Shown here piece after piece: positions 14,335 through 27,305 of a stretch of DNA of 41,223 nt. The position numbers and the translations under genes were made by a program. Source of the DNA: Cytophagia bacterium CHB2 (lineage in GTDB: Bacteria > Zhuqueibacterota > Zhuqueibacteria > Zhuqueibacterales > Zhuqueibacteraceae); assembly GCA_030263535.1 (NCBI GenBank), contig SZPB01000010.1, positions 1-41,223 on the forward strand. The letters are read 5' to 3'. The notes under the pieces were generated by a model that saw only the letters and a program-made list of their open reading frames with translations, was not told where the DNA came from and made no database searches. Numbering within the stretch: position 1 is the first letter of the stretch; each line of letters begins with the position of its first letter.

Positions 14335-16611
14335 TTACATGCGTTCAATCTCCCGCAACAGCCAACGCAACTCGCTCGCCTCCAGTGCTGTGGTAATACC
14401 CGCATTTAGTGTTGCTCGCGCCTCTTTGATCCGTCCGAGTTCCAGATAAAATCTTGCCAGCAACAAGTAGCCTGAGCTTTCATACCGGCGAAAATGAATT
14501 GCCTTGTTGTAAGCTGCAATTGCAGCTTCCGTGTTGCGTTGCTGCGCGTAGGCGGTGCCAAGATTGGTCAGCGCCATCACATTGGTGGAATCCAATGTGA
14601 GGGCATTTTGGAAGGAACGAATGGCGTTGTTGAGATCGCCGCGATTGCCGTAGGCATTGCCCTGATTCACATAAATGAACGGATCATCCGGTTTGATCGC
14701 AAGCGCCATTTGAAACACCTCGAGCGCATTTGCAAAATCACCCCGGCTGCTGAATTGAGTGCCGAGATAATCCAGCGCCAAGGCCCATCGGCTGCGCACC
14801 GCATGCTCGTTCTCACCCAAGTCCCGCAACGTTCGAATCAAGAATGACCGCACCTCGGCGTCTTTGCCAAAGCTATAGTGCAAACTCATCAAGCCCAGCG
14901 CCTTTAAATCGAGATCAAGCGATTGCACAAAGGCTTTGAGGCGCCGGACGACCATAGTGTCTTTCGTTGTCATATTCGGACGCAGAAAAGTTTTGGTGAA
15001 ATAACTCACGGCCGCGGTCTGCGCCATGGCATGATTTGCCTCCGGCTGCAAGAGCATTTGCGCCGCCGTTTCAAAATTTGTGTTAGGATCGATCTCCAGC
15101 AATCCCTGCACGATACGTTTGTGCGGCTTGAGTTCCCCATACCATGTATTGACCTGAGCTTCCAACGCTGCAATGCTTTTGTCCGGATGGCATTGCCGGC
15201 AGGCATTCTCAATGCCGAGTTGTGCATCGAAGGCCGGACGCGGGATGGGAATGGAGTGATCCGAACGCGCGAAACGGATTTGATCACCGATGCCGCGATG
15301 CTGCAAATAAGGCATGTGGCAGGAGGTGCACAAGCTTCCAGCAGAATTCTGTCTATGTTTGGTGTGTTGTTCCAGTCGATCGCGCTTGCTGGCATGGCAA
15401 CCGAGACATTGCTCGCTATCAAACCGGCCTGATAAACGCCGGCCAGTGACATCGCGGTAATGCTGCGCATGCGGATCATGGCAATCAACGCATGTCATCG
15501 ATCCGTTGAGATAGCAATCGCTGTAACGATGATTGTCTTGATACGCAAAATGGCGTACACGGCCATCGGCCAGATACGGCCCTTCAGCCAACAGCGGCAA
15601 TTTCAACGAGTAATAGTCTTCCAGCTTTCTTCCCGGCAAATAACCGGCGCGAAGCGGATCTTTCACGGCATGACATTGCAAGCAAATTTGCAGCGACTCC
15701 TCTTTGCTCAAGGTCGATAATGATTTCATGCCAATATCTGCGGTCTCGGAAATTTTTCCGGAATGCGCCAGTTCCGCATGTTGCTTGCCCGGCCCGTGAC
15801 AGGATTCGCAATTGATTGCGAGGCTTTGATAGCGCGTTGCAAACCGCATGTGCTTCGCATCATAGGCCACTTCGATTTGGCTGCCGTGACAGTTTTGGCA
15901 ATTTGAAATGCTTGTTTCCGTGCCCAGAATTCTATGGGGCGGCCACTCGTTCAAATCTGTGAGAGCCAAATCACGACTCACCGGCGTCCACTGTTGATTG
16001 CTTCTTCTCTGCACAAACCAACGCTGTTCGTGTTTGCTGTAGTCAAACGGCAGAAACCGTAATGTGCCGTCTGGAAATTTTGCGAAGTAACTTTGCGTGC
16101 CGCCGCCCCTCATGTGGCCTCCGCCGATTACGGCCTCGACCGGGAAAACACGCGGCGGTGCGCCCTCTTGCTTAACGGTAAATGTGAAACCGCGTGTGGC
16201 ATCATACGCGGGTGTAACAGTGGCGTCTTTAAATTGCATGGGCTCCCTGTTGAATGGGCCGATCATTGTCTGCGGCTGCGCCGGGCCGCCTGCGCGCGCA
16301 TGTGTCGAAGATCGCCAGGCTTCGTATTCTTCCGTATGGCACTCGGCGCAAGTTTGCGCGCCAACAAAATCTGTGAAGGAAACCTCAGCGCTTGCTTTGA
16401 AGTCCGCTGCCGCAGGAAATTCGGTGTTATTTGAAACCGCCGATTTTTTTGAAAGTGATGGGAGGACGTAAAAAATAGCAATGATGAGCAAAAGCACACC
16501 CGCAATGAGCATGAGAATGTTTTTGTGCCGCCCATGGGGCTGAACGCGCTTCACCTGCGCCGGCGGCAAAGAAGCGCGCCCAGCGTGCTTGATTTTTTTC
16601 TTTTTGCTCAT
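14335..16611 (-). CDS. Octaheme c-type cytochrome with C-terminal TPR domain
   Basis: A 758-residue protein with a basic N-terminus, one membrane segment (residues ~30-50, NILMLIAGVLLLIIAIFYVL) and a periplasmic part. I count eight CxxCH heme sites in order: CAECH, CQNCH, CESCH, CLQCH, CVDCH, CLGCH, CTSCH and CRQCH, the last near residue 475. The last ~170 residues are tetratricopeptide repeats (GDFANALEVFQMALAIKPDD, NAIRSFQNALTLDSTNVMAL, TEAAIAAYNKAI). The arrangement resembles cytochrome c-554/multiheme proteins annotated as TPR proteins in many uncultured bacteria. A role in periplasmic electron transfer is likely; the partner is unknown. I start at the ATG at 16611; a TTG three codons upstream is the alternative. 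It is divergent from the EndoQ-helicase gene. Confidence 0.85.
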   Translation of the reverse strand: MSKKKKIKHAGRASLPPAQVKRVQPHGRHKNILMLIAGVLLLIIAIFYVLPSLSKKSAVSNNTEFPAAADFKASAEVSFTDFVGAQTCAECHTEEYEAWRSSTHARAGGPAQPQTMIGPFNREPMQFKDATVTPAYDATRGFTFTVKQEGAPPRVFPVEAVIGGGHMRGGGTQSYFAKFPDGTLRFLPFDYSKHEQRWFVQRRSNQQWTPVSRDLALTDLNEWPPHRILGTETSISNCQNCHGSQIEVAYDAKHMRFATRYQSLAINCESCHGPGKQHAELAHSGKISETADIGMKSLSTLSKEESLQICLQCHAVKDPLRAGYLPGRKLEDYYSLKLPLLAEGPYLADGRVRHFAYQDNHRYSDCYLNGSMTCVDCHDPHAQHYRDVTGRRLSGRFDSEQCLGCHASKRDRLEQHTKHRQNSAGSLCTSCHMPYLQHRGIGDQIRFARSDHSIPIPRPAFDAQLGIENACRQCHPDKSIAALEAQVNTWYGELKPHKRIVQGLLEIDPNTNFETAAQMLLQPEANHAMAQTAAVSYFTKTFLRPNMTTKDTMVVRRLKAFVQSLDLDLKALGLMSLHYSFGKDAEVRSFLIRTLRDLGENEHAVRSRWALALDYLGTQFSSRGDFANALEVFQMALAIKPDDPFIYVNQGNAYGNRGDLNNAIRSFQNALTLDSTNVMALTNLGTAYAQQRNTEAAIAAYNKAIHFRRYESSGYLLLARFYLELGRIKEARATLNAGITTALEASELRWLLREIERM

Positions 16612-16807
16612 GCCCGTCAATCAGCCTTTGAGATTGAACCGCTGCCAGATTTGAATCAAACTGAACATAGCTTTCAGTTTAGAAGTTTTCAAGCATATTT
16701 TTGCCGTCTTTTTTCCTTGCGACTTTGCCCGCCTTTTTGTAGCATGCCGAGCCAGCAATGAATGATCCGCCGCGGCCAAGCCGTGGCGTTTTCCTCTGAG
16801 ACTGCCT

Positions 16808-16869: not shown

Positions 16870-19800
16870 ATGAAATTTTACGCCGACCTGCATTTGCATT
16901 CTCACTATTCTCGCGCAACGAGCAAACAGCTTAATCTCGAATATCTCAGTCAATGGGCGCAATTCAAAGGCATCACCGTGGTCGGCACCGGAGATTTTGT
17001 GCATCCCGGCTGGCTGAATGAATTGCGTGAAAAACTCGAGCCTGCCGAACCCGGCCTCTTTCGACTTAAAAATGAATATCGCATCAAAACGCAGGCGGCA
17101 GTTCCCCACGCCTGTGTTGCCGAAGTGCGTTTTATGCTCACCGCAGAGATTTCCAACATCTACAAACGTCTCGATAAAGTCCGCAAAATTCACAACGTCG
17201 TTTTTGCGCCGAGTTTCGAAGCGGCTCTGAAGATCCAGGCCAAGCTTGAAACCATTGGCAACATTCGTTCCGACGGCCGCCCGATTCTCGGTTTGGATTC
17301 GCGCGATCTTCTTGAAATCGTTTTGCACTCTGATCCCTTGGCGTTTTTGATTCCCGCGCATATCTGGACGCCCTGGTTTGCCGTGCTCGGTTCCAAAGGC
17401 GGTTTTGATTCCATTGATGATTGCTTTGCTGATCTCACGCCGCATATTTTCGCGGTCGAGACCGGGCTTTCTTCCGACCCCACGATGAATTGGCGTCTCA
17501 AACAACTTGACCGTTTTGTTTTGATTTCAAATTCGGATGCGCATTCACCGCCGAAACTCGCGCGCGAAGCAAATTTGTTTGATACCGAGCTTTCTTATCC
17601 CGCGATGTATCGCGCCTGGGAAGATTATGATGACAAGGGTTTTCTTGGCACCATTGAATTCTTTCCGGAGGAAGGCAAGTATCATTACGACGGCCATCGC
17701 GCCTGCCGTATGCGTTTGCATCCGCGCGAAACCGCAGAGCATGAAGGCAATTGTCCGGTGTGCGGCAAACCCGTGACGGTTGGCGTCATGGCGCGTGTGG
17801 AAGCATTGGCAGACCGGCCCGAGGGCGAGAAATCCCCGCGCTGGCGGCCTTACACCAATCTCATCCCGCTGCCGGAAGTCATTGCTGAGGCGCATGGCAA
17901 GAAAGCCGGAACCAAAAACGTCGATCAAGTTTTTATGCGCATGCTCAAACAACTCGGCAACGAGCTTTATATCTTGCAGGATGCCTCGATTGAGGATATC
18001 ACGAAGAACGCAGGCCCGGTCGTTGCTGAAGGGATTCGCCGCATGCGCAGCGGCGAAGTCAAAATCGCTGCCGGCTATGACGGCGAATATGGCACGATTC
18101 ATCTCTTCACGCCGGAAGAACGCAAAGATTTTCTGCGGCAAACCAGCCTCGTGGAAACGGAGTTAGAAGCGACTTTGGATGAAACGGAATCAAAAAATGG
18201 CGGCATCACGCGAGGCGCCAAGCAAAGTCAAGCCGGCTCGCGCGAGCCTGAGCAGAGCGTCGTTGAATCTACTGCCCCGACTTTTGATAGCCTGAATCCT
18301 TCGCAGCGCAAAGCTGTCGTGCACGAACATGGCCATTTGATCATCGTCGCTGGCCCGGGAACTGGCAAAACGCATACGCTCGTGCATCGCGCCATTCATT
18401 TGGTGCAGTCCGGCGAGCGGCCGGAGAGTATGCTTGCCATCACATTTACGAATAAGGCTGCTGAAGAAATGCGCCAACGCTTGCATGATCGGTTGCAAGA
18501 AATGGCCGTGCTCATCGAAGTTGGAACGTTTCATGCGTTTTGCCTTGCTTTGTTGCGCCGGTACGGCGGCGATCAAGCAGATTTCGAAATCATAAATGAC
18601 GCACAAAAAAAAGAAATGGTGAAAGAGCTGTGGCCGGAAGTGACCACAGCAGAACGATCCGCTTGGGTGGAAGAAATATCCTATCAAAAGGCAATTCTAT
18701 CTCCACTCACCTCGGAAAAACATGCAGCAAAGCGTCAACGTTACGATGAAGCATTACGCCGGCAAAGATTTTGGGATTTCGATGATCTATTGTTGCAAGC
18801 AATCCAATTGCTGGAAAACAATGCTGCGATTCAACATGAATTACATCAGCGGTTAGCCTGGATTTTTGTTGATGAATATCAAGATCTCAATCCAGCACAG
18901 CATCGCCTGCTGAAACTGTTGGTACATGCCGATGCCCGTTTGACCGCAATCGGCGATCCCAATCAAGCGATCTACGGCTTTCGCGGTTCGGAAACGGGAT
19001 ATTTTAACCGCTTCACGCAAGATTTTCCCGGCGCTGTGATGCTGCGTTTGGAAGAGAACTATCGCTCCGGCGCGAATATTCTTTCGGCTTCCGGCCAGGT
19101 CATTGCCGCAGGTGAGCAAAGTGCGGCGCTGCCGCTTTTGCCTGCTTCGCTGCTCGCCGGTAATGTCACGATCTATGCGGCGCCCACCGAGCATGCCGAG
19201 GCGGAATACCTCGTTCATCAAATTGAAAAACTGGTGGGTGGCACGAGCATGTTCTCGCAAGATTCGGGACGGGTGGAACACGAGCGCGAAGGAAAGTTCA
19301 GCTTTGGCGACTTTGCCATTCTGTATCGATTGAATGCGATGCGGGGGCCGCTGGAGGAGGCGCTGCAACGTTCCGGCATGCCGTATCAAATTTCGAGTGA
19401 AACGCCTTTGGCGCAGCGTGATGGCGTTCCGGAGTTGCTGGGGCTTATTCGTCTGGCCGCGGGTTTCTATCTCGAGCCACGGCATTTAGCGGATTATTTG
19501 ATGCTCGCAACACCCGGCTTTGGCGAAAGCACGGCTAAAACCGCCGCAAGCTTTTTTGCAACATTGCCGCAGCTTCGAGTCGAGTCGATTGCACAGTTTA
19601 TTGATCGGCAAAATCTACAGGTGAAGCAGGGAGAAGCGCTGCAACGAACCTTGGCTGCAATTGAAATTTTCAAAAGGGATTTGAATGAACACGGGCTGGT
19701 GCGTGCATTAGAGAATTTCTTGGCAAGTGACCACGTTCGAGCAACCGTTGCATCGAAACAGAAATGCTGGGAGAATTGGGGCAGAATTGTGAATCTCTCG

Positions 19801-20220
19801 CGCTGGCATTCCACCCCGCGTACCTTACTTGATGTGTTGGCATTGCAGAACGAAGCGGATCAAATCGATGCGCGCGCCGAAAAAATTTCAGTGATGACGC
19901 TGCATGCGGCCAAAGGATTGGAATTCCCTGTGGTTTTTATCGCCGGTTGCGAAGAAGGTTTGACGCCGATGCGATTGGAAAATTTGCAGGGCGATCTTGC
20001 GGAAGAACGCCGATTGTTTTATGTTGGTATGACGCGCGCGAAAGAGCGGCTTTATCTCGTTCGCGCGGCGCGGCGCATGCTGTTCGGCAAAACCCGGCAA
20101 CATCCCGCCTCCCCATTTTTGGCCGATATCGAAGAACAGCTCAAAGCTTATGAGCATTGGCAGGCAAAGCCCAAAAAGAATGTTGATAAAGTAGCGGACC
20201 AACAACTCAAACTATTTTAA
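16870..20220 (+). CDS. Endonuclease Q (PHP) - UvrD/Rep helicase fusion
   Basis: A 1116-residue two-part DNA repair protein. Residues 1-~425 match endonuclease Q, which nicks DNA 5' of uracil, hypoxanthine and abasic sites: PHP metal motifs D6-L-H8-L-H10, GTGDFVHP, PAHIWTPWF and SNSDAHS (D223, H225), then a zinc-finger-like region with C279, C295 and C298. A ~45-residue polar linker follows. Residues ~472-1116 are a superfamily 1 helicase: LNPSQRKAV, Walker A GPGTGKT (~495), DEYQD (668-672), GDPNQAIYGFRGS, LEENYRS, VMTLHAAKGLEF (~1008) and FYVGMTRAKERL. All motifs appear intact. It heads a close-packed run; the next gene starts 16 bp later. EndoQ and UvrD assignments are firm; cooperation of the two halves is inference. 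Confidence 0.88.
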   Translation: MKFYADLHLHSHYSRATSKQLNLEYLSQWAQFKGITVVGTGDFVHPGWLNELREKLEPAEPGLFRLKNEYRIKTQAAVPHACVAEVRFMLTAEISNIYKRLDKVRKIHNVVFAPSFEAALKIQAKLETIGNIRSDGRPILGLDSRDLLEIVLHSDPLAFLIPAHIWTPWFAVLGSKGGFDSIDDCFADLTPHIFAVETGLSSDPTMNWRLKQLDRFVLISNSDAHSPPKLAREANLFDTELSYPAMYRAWEDYDDKGFLGTIEFFPEEGKYHYDGHRACRMRLHPRETAEHEGNCPVCGKPVTVGVMARVEALADRPEGEKSPRWRPYTNLIPLPEVIAEAHGKKAGTKNVDQVFMRMLKQLGNELYILQDASIEDITKNAGPVVAEGIRRMRSGEVKIAAGYDGEYGTIHLFTPEERKDFLRQTSLVETELEATLDETESKNGGITRGAKQSQAGSREPEQSVVESTAPTFDSLNPSQRKAVVHEHGHLIIVAGPGTGKTHTLVHRAIHLVQSGERPESMLAITFTNKAAEEMRQRLHDRLQEMAVLIEVGTFHAFCLALLRRYGGDQADFEIINDAQKKEMVKELWPEVTTAERSAWVEEISYQKAILSPLTSEKHAAKRQRYDEALRRQRFWDFDDLLLQAIQLLENNAAIQHELHQRLAWIFVDEYQDLNPAQHRLLKLLVHADARLTAIGDPNQAIYGFRGSETGYFNRFTQDFPGAVMLRLEENYRSGANILSASGQVIAAGEQSAALPLLPASLLAGNVTIYAAPTEHAEAEYLVHQIEKLVGGTSMFSQDSGRVEHEREGKFSFGDFAILYRLNAMRGPLEEALQRSGMPYQISSETPLAQRDGVPELLGLIRLAAGFYLEPRHLADYLMLATPGFGESTAKTAASFFATLPQLRVESIAQFIDRQNLQVKQGEALQRTLAAIEIFKRDLNEHGLVRALENFLASDHVRATVASKQKCWENWGRIVNLSRWHSTPRTLLDVLALQNEADQIDARAEKISVMTLHAAKGLEFPVVFIAGCEEGLTPMRLENLQGDLAEERRLFYVGMTRAKERLYLVRAARRMLFGKTRQHPASPFLADIEEQLKAYEHWQAKPKKNVDKVADQQLKLF

Positions 20221-23303: not shown

Positions 23304-23330
23304 AGGGTATTCGATATTTCGAATACCTTT
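23304..23330. terminator. Bidirectional terminator between lnt and the sulfite-oxidase-like gene
   Basis: GGTATTCGA (23306-23314) and TCGAATACC (23319-23327) form a perfect 9-bp stem with a TATT loop. AAAA lies on the left and TTT on the right, so the structure can terminate both converging transcripts. Confidence 0.65.
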
Positions 23331-23353: not shown

Positions 23354-23986
23354 TCATCCAAACCGTTCTTCCGCCCAGGGATCGCCGTGCATGTGATAAC
23401 CGTAACGTTCCCAAAACCCCGGCGCATTGCGATCGATGAACTCCAGGCCGTTGAGCCATTTCGCGCTTTTCCAAAAATAAAGTTTTGGAACCACCAGCCG
23501 CAGCGGGCCGCCGTGATCGCGCTCCAACGGCTTGCCGCCGAACATATCCGCAAGAATCACCTCGTCCTCATACATCTCTTCGATCAGCATATTTGTGGTA
23601 TAGCCGCCGTAGGAATGCTGCATCACGGCGAGCGCCGACGGCAAAGGCTTGGCGCGCTCGGCAATTGCCGTGAATGGCACACCTTCCCATTCTGAATCCA
23701 GCAAGCTCCAGCGCGTGACGCAGTGAATATCAACGTGAATCTTTTTGCGCGGCAAGCCTTGCAACTCTTCTCAGGAGAGCGTGAACGGATTTTCCACCAA
23801 TCCCCACACTTTTAATCGCCAAGTCTTGAGATCGACAACTGGCGTTTCGCCATAAGTTAAAACCGGAAATTTTTCAGTGCGATATTGGCCCGGCGGAATG
23901 CGCTCGCGCAAATCAGTATCCGGACGGCGTTTGGGATCAGCTTGCCGCAGGCGCTGCACGCGTTTGAAGGGATCGAGTATTGACAT
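23354..23986 (-). pseudogene. Sulfite-oxidase-like molybdopterin oxidoreductase interrupted by in-frame TGA
   Basis: The minus-strand frame from ATG 23986 to the stop at 23354 would encode about 210 residues of the YuiH-like sulfite oxidase-type molybdopterin family. It has RIPPGQYRTEKFPVLTYGETP, then LKVWGLVENPFTLS, then ELQGLPRKKIHVDIHCVTRWS with the Mo-ligand Cys at position ~89, then GGPLRLVVPKLYFWKSAKW, GFWERYGYHMHGDPWAEERF. Codon 72 (23771-23773) is TGA with no frameshift. Family members usually have Trp (TGG) there (LSWDEFQALP), so one G-to-A change explains it. The downstream half is conserved, suggesting a recent mutation, a sequencing error, or readthrough. Selenocysteine is unlikely, since the site is a Trp position. 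As written, only a 71-residue fragment is made. Confidence 0.8.
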
Positions 23987-24418: not shown

Positions 24419-24665
24419 TGCAGCAGGCTCAAATGATCACAATGAAACTAACCGGGTGTGCTTAAAGATCACGCGGCACTTTAGAAATAAACCGCAGGAA
24501 AAGCAACAAGATTTTTGGTGTTGTGGATGCGTGAATGATCACTGGCTCCGTGCGGCATGCTCGAAACTCAGCCACTCGACACATTTCTATTGCGTCCTCG
24601 TGAAAAAAATCACACTCTTCGCAAATACTCAAGAACGCTGGGTTGAATTACAATTCCGAGGGAGT

Positions 24666-27305
24666 ATGAAAACTCGCCAGGTTTCCTTTTTTAGCGCTGC
24701 CTTTCGCTTCGCCGTTTTGATTGTTGGATTTCAGATTGCCGCGCATCTCAGTCAAGAAGCCAAAGCGCCGCCACCTCCGCGCAAAAAGCTTCCTCCCGGT
24801 GCGATGCATGCGTTGAATTTCTTTGCTGCTGCGCGGGCGTATCCGGACAAAATCATTTCCGGCGGCGGCTTTTATCGCGCCCATGAATTTTCTCAAACAA
24901 CTTTGCAAAAGCAAAGCCTGCAAAAAAGCAACGCCACGAAATGGAAACTGCTCGGACCCAAGAATGTCGGCGGCCGTACCAATGCGATCGCCATTAATCC
25001 GCAGAATCCGAACACGATTTATGTGGGCGCGGCCAGCGGCGGACTCTGGCGCAGCTTCACAGCCGGCGTAGGCGTGGAAGCATGGGAGTATGTCGATACC
25101 GGCTTTCCGGTGTTGGGCGTCGGCGCGATTGCCATCGATCCTGGCGACACCAACAAAATTTATATCGGCACGGGCGAAGTCTACGGCTATCAAGATGCCA
25201 CCGGCGGCGTGACGATTCGCACGACGCGCGGCAGTTATGGCATTGGTATTCTCAAAACCAATGACGGTGGCGCGACGTGGTCGAAGAGTCTTGATTGGAG
25301 TTATGATCAAAAGCGCGGCGTGCAAGCGCTGGCAATCAGCCCGCAGAATTCAAACATTATTTATGCCGGCACAACGGAAGGCACATACAAGTCAATCAAT
25401 GCCGGCGCTTCGTGGACGCAGGTTCATGGCGTTTTGATGGTGATGGATATCGATATTAATCCGCAAAACCCGGATATTGTCTTTGCATCGTGCGGCGGAT
25501 TGGGCAGCCCGGGTGCGGCAGTCTATCGCTCAACTGATGCCGGCCTGAATTGGCAGCAACTCACCAATGGCTTGCCGATAAATTATACCGGCAAAACCAT
25601 TATTGACATTCATCAAGCGAATCCCCGAATCATATATGCCGACGTGGCGAATGATTTTCGAACAGTCGGCATTTATCGCAGCGACGATGGCGGCGATAGT
25701 TGGAGGCGGGTTACAACGTTGGATATTGCGCAATATCAAGGCTGGTATTCGCATTTCATCTGGGTGCATCCCACCGATCCTGATTTCATCATTGCCGGCG
25801 GCATTGATTTGTGGAAATCCACCAACGGCGGTGTGACGTTCACAAAAAAATCGGATTGGGCCGCGTGGCAGTTCGGCGTGGTGCCGGTGGGCGGCCCTGA
25901 AGGTCCGCCACATTATTCGCACGCGGATCATCATGCCGTGGCTGGCGATCCGTTTAGTCCTGACATCATCTACTTCACGAATGATGGCGGCGTGTTTCGC
26001 ACCACAGACGGCGGTGAAACATTTGAGGGGTTGAACGGCGGCTATGCCACGACGCAATTCTATAACGGCTTTTCGAGTGCGACTTCAGACTCTACGCTGG
26101 CCATCGGCGGCTTGCAAGACAACTCAACTGTGATTTATGAAGGCACGGACGCCTGGCGGCGCGTAATCGGCGGCGATGGTTGTTGGACTGCGATCGATCC
26201 TTTCGATCATAATGTGATGTACGGCGAAGCACAAAATCTCAATATCTTCAAATCCACTAATCGCGGCCATGAAAGCTCGTGGTACAGCGTGACCAGCGGT
26301 ATCAATCGCAGCGGCGCCGGATTTGTCGCGCCATATGTCGTTTCGCCTTCCAACAGCAACATTTTGTATGCCGGAACATCGCGTGTGTATAAAACCACCA
26401 ACGCAGCAGGCTTTTGGACGGCGACGAACAATAATTTCACGCTTGATAATAATCCAGTGTTGTCACTGGCAATGTCCGCGACAAATGCCGACACGGTTTA
26501 TGCTGCCACCTCGCCGATCAACAGCCGTGCGCATGTTTTTCGCACGATCAACGGCGGCGCGAGTTGGGAGGACCTTACCTCCAACTTGCCGGATCGTTAT
26601 CCGATGGATATTGCCGTCGATCCCAATGACTCGCGCAATGTGCATGTCGTGTTCTCCGGCTTCGGCTCCTCGCATTTGTTTAAATCAAATGATGCTGGAC
26701 TGAGTTGGGTTGATATCGGCGCCGGTTTGCCCGATGTTCCGTCTTCGGCGGTTACCGTCGATCCACGGTTTCCTCATCATATTTATTTCGGCAATGATCT
26801 CGGCGTTTATGTTTCGTTGGATGGCGGCGACAATTGGCAGGCCTGGCAGGAGGGCATGCCCACAGCGCTGGTGATGGATTTATCGATCTCGCCGAGTAAT
26901 CGCGCCATTCGTGTTGCGACGCACGGCAACGGCGTGTGGGAACGGCCGTTGATCGGCGATCAGATTTCTGATGTCGTGCAACCGCATGCTCCCGTTTTTT
27001 CGTTTCGACTCTATCAGAATTATCCGAACCCGATTTCCTTGAGCGCCGTTTCCGGAAATCATGAAACCGTGATTGGATATGAATTGAGTGAAGCCTCCTC
27101 GGTTAACATTGCCGTGCACAATCTCCTGGGGCAGGAGGTGGCAAGGTTGACCGAGCTTGCGCAAGCACGCGGCTCCCATCAACGTCGTTTGTCTGTTGCG
27201 AACTTTGCACCGGGTGTTTATTTTTACACAATGCGCACGAGGAGCGCTTCTACAGGTCAAAGCCAAGGTCTTTTGCAAACACGCAAGATGTTGATCACCG
27301 AATAA
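24666..27305 (+). CDS. Secreted Asp-box (sortilin/BNR-type) beta-propeller with T9SS sorting tail
   Basis: An 879-residue exported protein starting at ATG 24666, just after GAGGGAG, with a signal segment (FRFAVLIVGFQIAAHL). The frame stays open upstream for 70 codons, but that part is Cys/His-rich and unlike a leader. The body is a beta-propeller with at least nine Asp-box turns (NDGGATW, STDAGLNW, SDDGGDSW, STNGGVTF, TTDGGETF, TINGGASW, SNDAGLSW, SLDGGDNW and a weaker NAGASW), as in sortilin/Vps10- and YCF48-like proteins. The last ~85 residues start LYQNYPNP and continue VNIAVHNLLGQEV and APGVYFYTM, the T9SS type A sorting domain. Likely a surface or secreted binding protein or glycoside-active enzyme; catalytic residues are not identifiable. 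Confidence 0.82.
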   Translation: MKTRQVSFFSAAFRFAVLIVGFQIAAHLSQEAKAPPPPRKKLPPGAMHALNFFAAARAYPDKIISGGGFYRAHEFSQTTLQKQSLQKSNATKWKLLGPKNVGGRTNAIAINPQNPNTIYVGAASGGLWRSFTAGVGVEAWEYVDTGFPVLGVGAIAIDPGDTNKIYIGTGEVYGYQDATGGVTIRTTRGSYGIGILKTNDGGATWSKSLDWSYDQKRGVQALAISPQNSNIIYAGTTEGTYKSINAGASWTQVHGVLMVMDIDINPQNPDIVFASCGGLGSPGAAVYRSTDAGLNWQQLTNGLPINYTGKTIIDIHQANPRIIYADVANDFRTVGIYRSDDGGDSWRRVTTLDIAQYQGWYSHFIWVHPTDPDFIIAGGIDLWKSTNGGVTFTKKSDWAAWQFGVVPVGGPEGPPHYSHADHHAVAGDPFSPDIIYFTNDGGVFRTTDGGETFEGLNGGYATTQFYNGFSSATSDSTLAIGGLQDNSTVIYEGTDAWRRVIGGDGCWTAIDPFDHNVMYGEAQNLNIFKSTNRGHESSWYSVTSGINRSGAGFVAPYVVSPSNSNILYAGTSRVYKTTNAAGFWTATNNNFTLDNNPVLSLAMSATNADTVYAATSPINSRAHVFRTINGGASWEDLTSNLPDRYPMDIAVDPNDSRNVHVVFSGFGSSHLFKSNDAGLSWVDIGAGLPDVPSSAVTVDPRFPHHIYFGNDLGVYVSLDGGDNWQAWQEGMPTALVMDLSISPSNRAIRVATHGNGVWERPLIGDQISDVVQPHAPVFSFRLYQNYPNPISLSAVSGNHETVIGYELSEASSVNIAVHNLLGQEVARLTELAQARGSHQRRLSVANFAPGVYFYTMRTRSASTGQSQGLLQTRKMLITE

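Follow-up and report, generated by a model that had tools for sequence, protein, structure and literature searches.

A TGA at a conserved tryptophan codon interrupts a small molybdenum oxidoreductase gene of Cytophagia bacterium CHB2, plausibly as a very recent nonsense mutation

Strain-level nonsense alleles and young bacterial pseudogenes are recognized by a disabling change in one genome together with intact copies of the gene in close relatives, and both are found at the locus described here. It shares with such alleles a single nonsense change, near-identical copies that are still intact and the lack of further decay, and differs from them in that the decisive base is known from an assembly consensus. 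The affected gene resembles the single-domain molybdenum (Mo) oxidoreductases of family PF00174, for which the small YuiH-like group is presumably the name, in its full-length PF00174 domain, its Mo-ligand cysteine and its length of about 200 residues, and departs from them only in an in-frame TGA. The larger members of the family, MsrP, SorA, SorT and SoxC, are alike in fold according to structural modeling (1xdy, 2blf, 2xts, 4pw3), but the product described here scores far below their curated cut-offs and is too short to include a dimerisation domain. A tRNA-Trp with a 4-bp anticodon stem has been shown to read UGA (PMC13092985).

The window, i.e., the whole stretch of 41,223 nucleotides that was analysed (positions 1 to 41,223 of contig SZPB01000010.1), carries on its minus strand, a strand left unstated in the preliminary description, a frame running from 23986 to 23354. 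It consists of 71 codons including the ATG, a TGA (TCA on the plus strand), 138 open codons and a natural TGA stop. The features referred to below are as follows.

23354 to 23986, minus strand: gene of 210 codons for a small, single-domain Mo-cofactor oxidoreductase of the sulfite-oxidase fold (PF00174 on the read-through protein, domain across the break, intact orthologue in the nearest public contig)
23771 to 23773, minus strand: in-frame TGA, codon 72 (from the sequence, with TGG in all close relatives)
23720 to 23722, minus strand: codon of Cys89, the expected Mo ligand, 3′ of the in-frame stop (Cys in 90 of 90 homologues)
23354 to 23764, minus strand: downstream fragment of 136 aa, starting from a TTG three codons past the stop (probably no functional product)
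23354 to 23356, minus strand: natural TGA stop of the gene (from translation)
23306 to 23327, minus strand: weak terminator-like hairpin directly 3′ of the gene (a single hit, where shuffled sequences give 1.0 on average)

Elsewhere in the window, by eye, the 761-aa protein encoded at 14335-16620 (minus strand) is probably a multihaem cytochrome, carrying several CxxCH-type motifs and, after them, TPR-like repeats, and the 1116-aa protein at 16870-20220 (plus strand) seemingly fuses a PHP-type phosphoesterase domain to a UvrD/Rep-type helicase.

Translation, Pfam and a six-frame search all bear out the initial report of a TGA at 23771-23773 with open reading on both sides. On the read-through protein, PF00174 matches residues 46-192 (E-value 9.8e-41; 139.6 bits, cut-off 24), and because the match covers these residues, codon 72 sits inside a single domain; the six-frame search of the whole genome independently marks the site as one TGA within the domain. 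A chance juxtaposition of two reading frames in the same phase is ruled out, since a single Pfam domain extends across the stop, as do all homologues. The structure predicted for the read-through protein (mean pLDDT 83, pTM 0.79) finds its best PDB fold matches in the bacterial oxidoreductase 1xdy/1xdq and in sulfite dehydrogenases, with E-values of about 1e-13 for 1xdy and 2blf and further matches to 2xts and 4pw3, at identities of 21-28% in the fold search. By its domain score, Mo-ligand cysteine and modeled fold, the protein is a member of the sulfite-oxidase-fold family PF00174. It is neither a strict sulfite oxidase or dehydrogenase nor an MsrP by the curated NCBIfam equivalog cut-offs, all of which it misses (MsrP 59 of the required 207 bits, SorA 43 of 600, SorT 29 of 570, SoxC 37 of 420). 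Cys89 aligns with a cysteine in each of 90 homologues and is presumably the Mo ligand characteristic of the family; the preliminary statement that this residue and the later conserved blocks are intact is upheld by the homologue alignment, and the gene product ends in the same conserved YHMHGDPWxEERF as the 90 homologues, which come from many phyla. The genome encodes a second PF00174 protein, intact and 337 aa long, on contig C2.

Comparison with relatives places the change in the lineage of the window. At codon 72, the 90 homologues carry Trp (81), Phe (5) or Tyr (4), never Cys or a stop, and their matches contain no stop anywhere, in agreement with the original proposal that a conserved Trp codon had turned into TGA. 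The nearest public contig, QEVD01000070.1 of candidate division KSB1 (hereafter L033), the sole near relative compared, is collinear with the window over 12 kb at 97-98% identity; its gene is open and codon 72 is TGG, as it is in both same-genus genomes (83-85% identity) and in eight relatives from the same family or order. Since neither the homologues nor the relatives have TGA at this codon, the window lineage carries the derived state. Over the 12.2 kb aligned with L033 there are 244 substitutions, and across ten genes about 221 codons have changed, 139 synonymously, 81 by replacement and one involving a stop. Apart from that stop, the two copies of the Mo-enzyme gene differ by three synonymous and four replacement changes, of which at least M122I occurred on the L033 side. 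About 3.1% of random coding substitutions make a stop, so that without selection about seven would be expected among the codons changed relative to L033, where one is observed. These counts agree with the earlier suggestion that the decay is recent or the stop artefactual. Decay of the region as a whole is ruled out, as none of the ten genes compared with L033 contains another stop and the window copies are open; read-through matches to genes of the genomes G001 and G002 merely extended beyond the gene starts. In L033, the copy of the window gene at 24456-27305, which is open in the window, lacks 37 and 16 bases opposite 25112-25148 and 26284-26299 and is broken in frame, reflecting either real decay or assembly trouble in the L033 record.

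Single in-gene stops occur elsewhere in the assembly as well. A scan for stops with same-frame coding sequence on both sides, covering 1.16 of the 6.98 Mb and retaining about 66% of planted stops, returned 19 candidates, most of which are ordinary neighboring genes as judged by eye from their translations. Besides 23771, two clear breaks were found in the 1.16 Mb: a TAG in a TldD/PmbA-like gene (contig C29:4451-4453, L170), where the same stretch is open in the same-family genome G006 (L192), and a TAA in a DUF6036 nucleotidyltransferase gene (contig C25:8750-8752, L166). A possible further break is a TGA at C18:19662-19664 (L159), in a frame with a weak, sub-threshold match to the CRISPR-associated Cas_NE0113. 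TGA, TAG and TAA hence all occur as isolated stops within genes, at a few per Mb and with no preference for TGA; nothing about the phenomenon is TGA-specific, and the pattern is what scattered nonsense mutations or errors in the consensus would produce, and not what recoding would.

The reading we somewhat favor is that a single TGG-to-TGA change arose very recently in the lineage of this strain, hitting codon 72 of a gene that had until then been intact; translation would stop after 71 residues, upstream of Cys89, and the truncated product would give no active enzyme, leaving the gene inactive. Its support comes from L033, with TGG and an open gene, from the one stop among about 221 changed codons, from TGG in the ten other relatives and an aromatic residue in 90 of 90 homologues, and from the in-gene TAG and TAA elsewhere in the assembly. 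The main rival, to which we assign a smaller but still substantial probability, holds that the TGA is an artefact, either a wrong base or the variant of a minority strain that entered the consensus of the fragmented draft, and that the gene of the organism itself is intact. The assembly invites such doubt, consisting of 681 contigs with 4.18% contamination and containing the scattered in-gene stops of all three kinds described above. Moreover, damage limited to one base would be expected of an error and of a recent mutation alike. However, if every in-gene stop were a base error, the consensus would contain about 1.5 errors per 10 kb, an estimate from only three events and a high rate for short-read data. 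For this reason we lean to a real mutation. We infer that the base is genuine and that the TGA allele yields no useful protein.

Readings in which a real TGA still permits an enzyme fare much worse. UGA is the leakiest bacterial stop, and its misreading by near-cognate tRNA-Trp would put the native residue back, which is the general ground for supposing that tRNA-Trp(CCA) decodes the codon at a useful level and the enzyme is still made; we regard this as very improbable. The only tRNA-Trp found has the anticodon CCA and a normal 5-bp anticodon stem (CCGGT/ACCGG), unlike the UGA-reading 4-bp form (PMC13092985), RF2 is present, and no relative shares the TGA. A change of the genetic code is rejected on related grounds: TGA is the commonest stop, ending 238 of 493 long open reading frames, RF2 has been retained, and the genome yielded no tRNA-Trp(UCA). 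Nothing suggests that misreading of UGA by tRNA-Trp is put to use for the Mo enzyme, and a strain-level, site-specific read-through that keeps it expressed, in a host also decoding UGA as selenocysteine elsewhere, is similarly hard to credit. That host does encode SelA (L137) and SelB (L138), and its SelD gene contains one in-frame TGA where selenocysteine usually stands (RCAG-U-ASKLSP; L146:1531-1533, contig C101). Selenoproteins are therefore probably made in this organism, with some TGA codons read as selenocysteine. No tRNA-Sec was found with the Rfam model, with ARAGORN near selA and selB or by pattern search; the tRNA may be an unusual one, or its gene may fall into an assembly gap. This machinery is what speaks for selenocysteine at codon 72, a reading we nevertheless reject as scarcely conceivable: homologues of a selenoprotein would be expected to have Cys at the TGA position, and here the ancestral residue is Trp and never Cys; the sister genomes carry TGG; and no SECIS-like hairpin follows the TGA, where the sequence folds less well than most of its shuffled versions (z 1.56) and Rfam gives no meaningful match. 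The preliminary description had likewise disfavored selenocysteine at a Trp position, and the outcome it named as refuting, a TGA shared by sister genomes and accompanied by a SECIS element, was looked for and not seen. Recoding, too, is still disfavored, but the use of TGA at the end of other genes, to which the description pointed, is not enough to dismiss it in a genome with SelA, SelB and an in-frame TGA in SelD. Reinitiation at the TTG at 23764, three codons past the stop and beside a purine-rich stretch, would give a shortened protein that retains Cys89. Such a fragment would, however, lack the predicted core strands 57-62 and 68-71 as well as P31, G33, Q34, P41, L43, G46 and G62, which are invariant in the family, and all 90 homologues continue through the site. 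From alignment and fold we judge a functional downstream fragment unlikely, and a working protein made by reinitiation extremely so.

The TGA at codon 72 is explained without a recoding hypothesis, as an ordinary recent mutation or a base error. In a host with selenocysteine machinery, selenocysteine has to be argued against from the ancestry and structure of the site, not from the use of TGA as a stop codon. Annotation should describe the gene as interrupted by a single stop and name the intact copies in near-identical strains.
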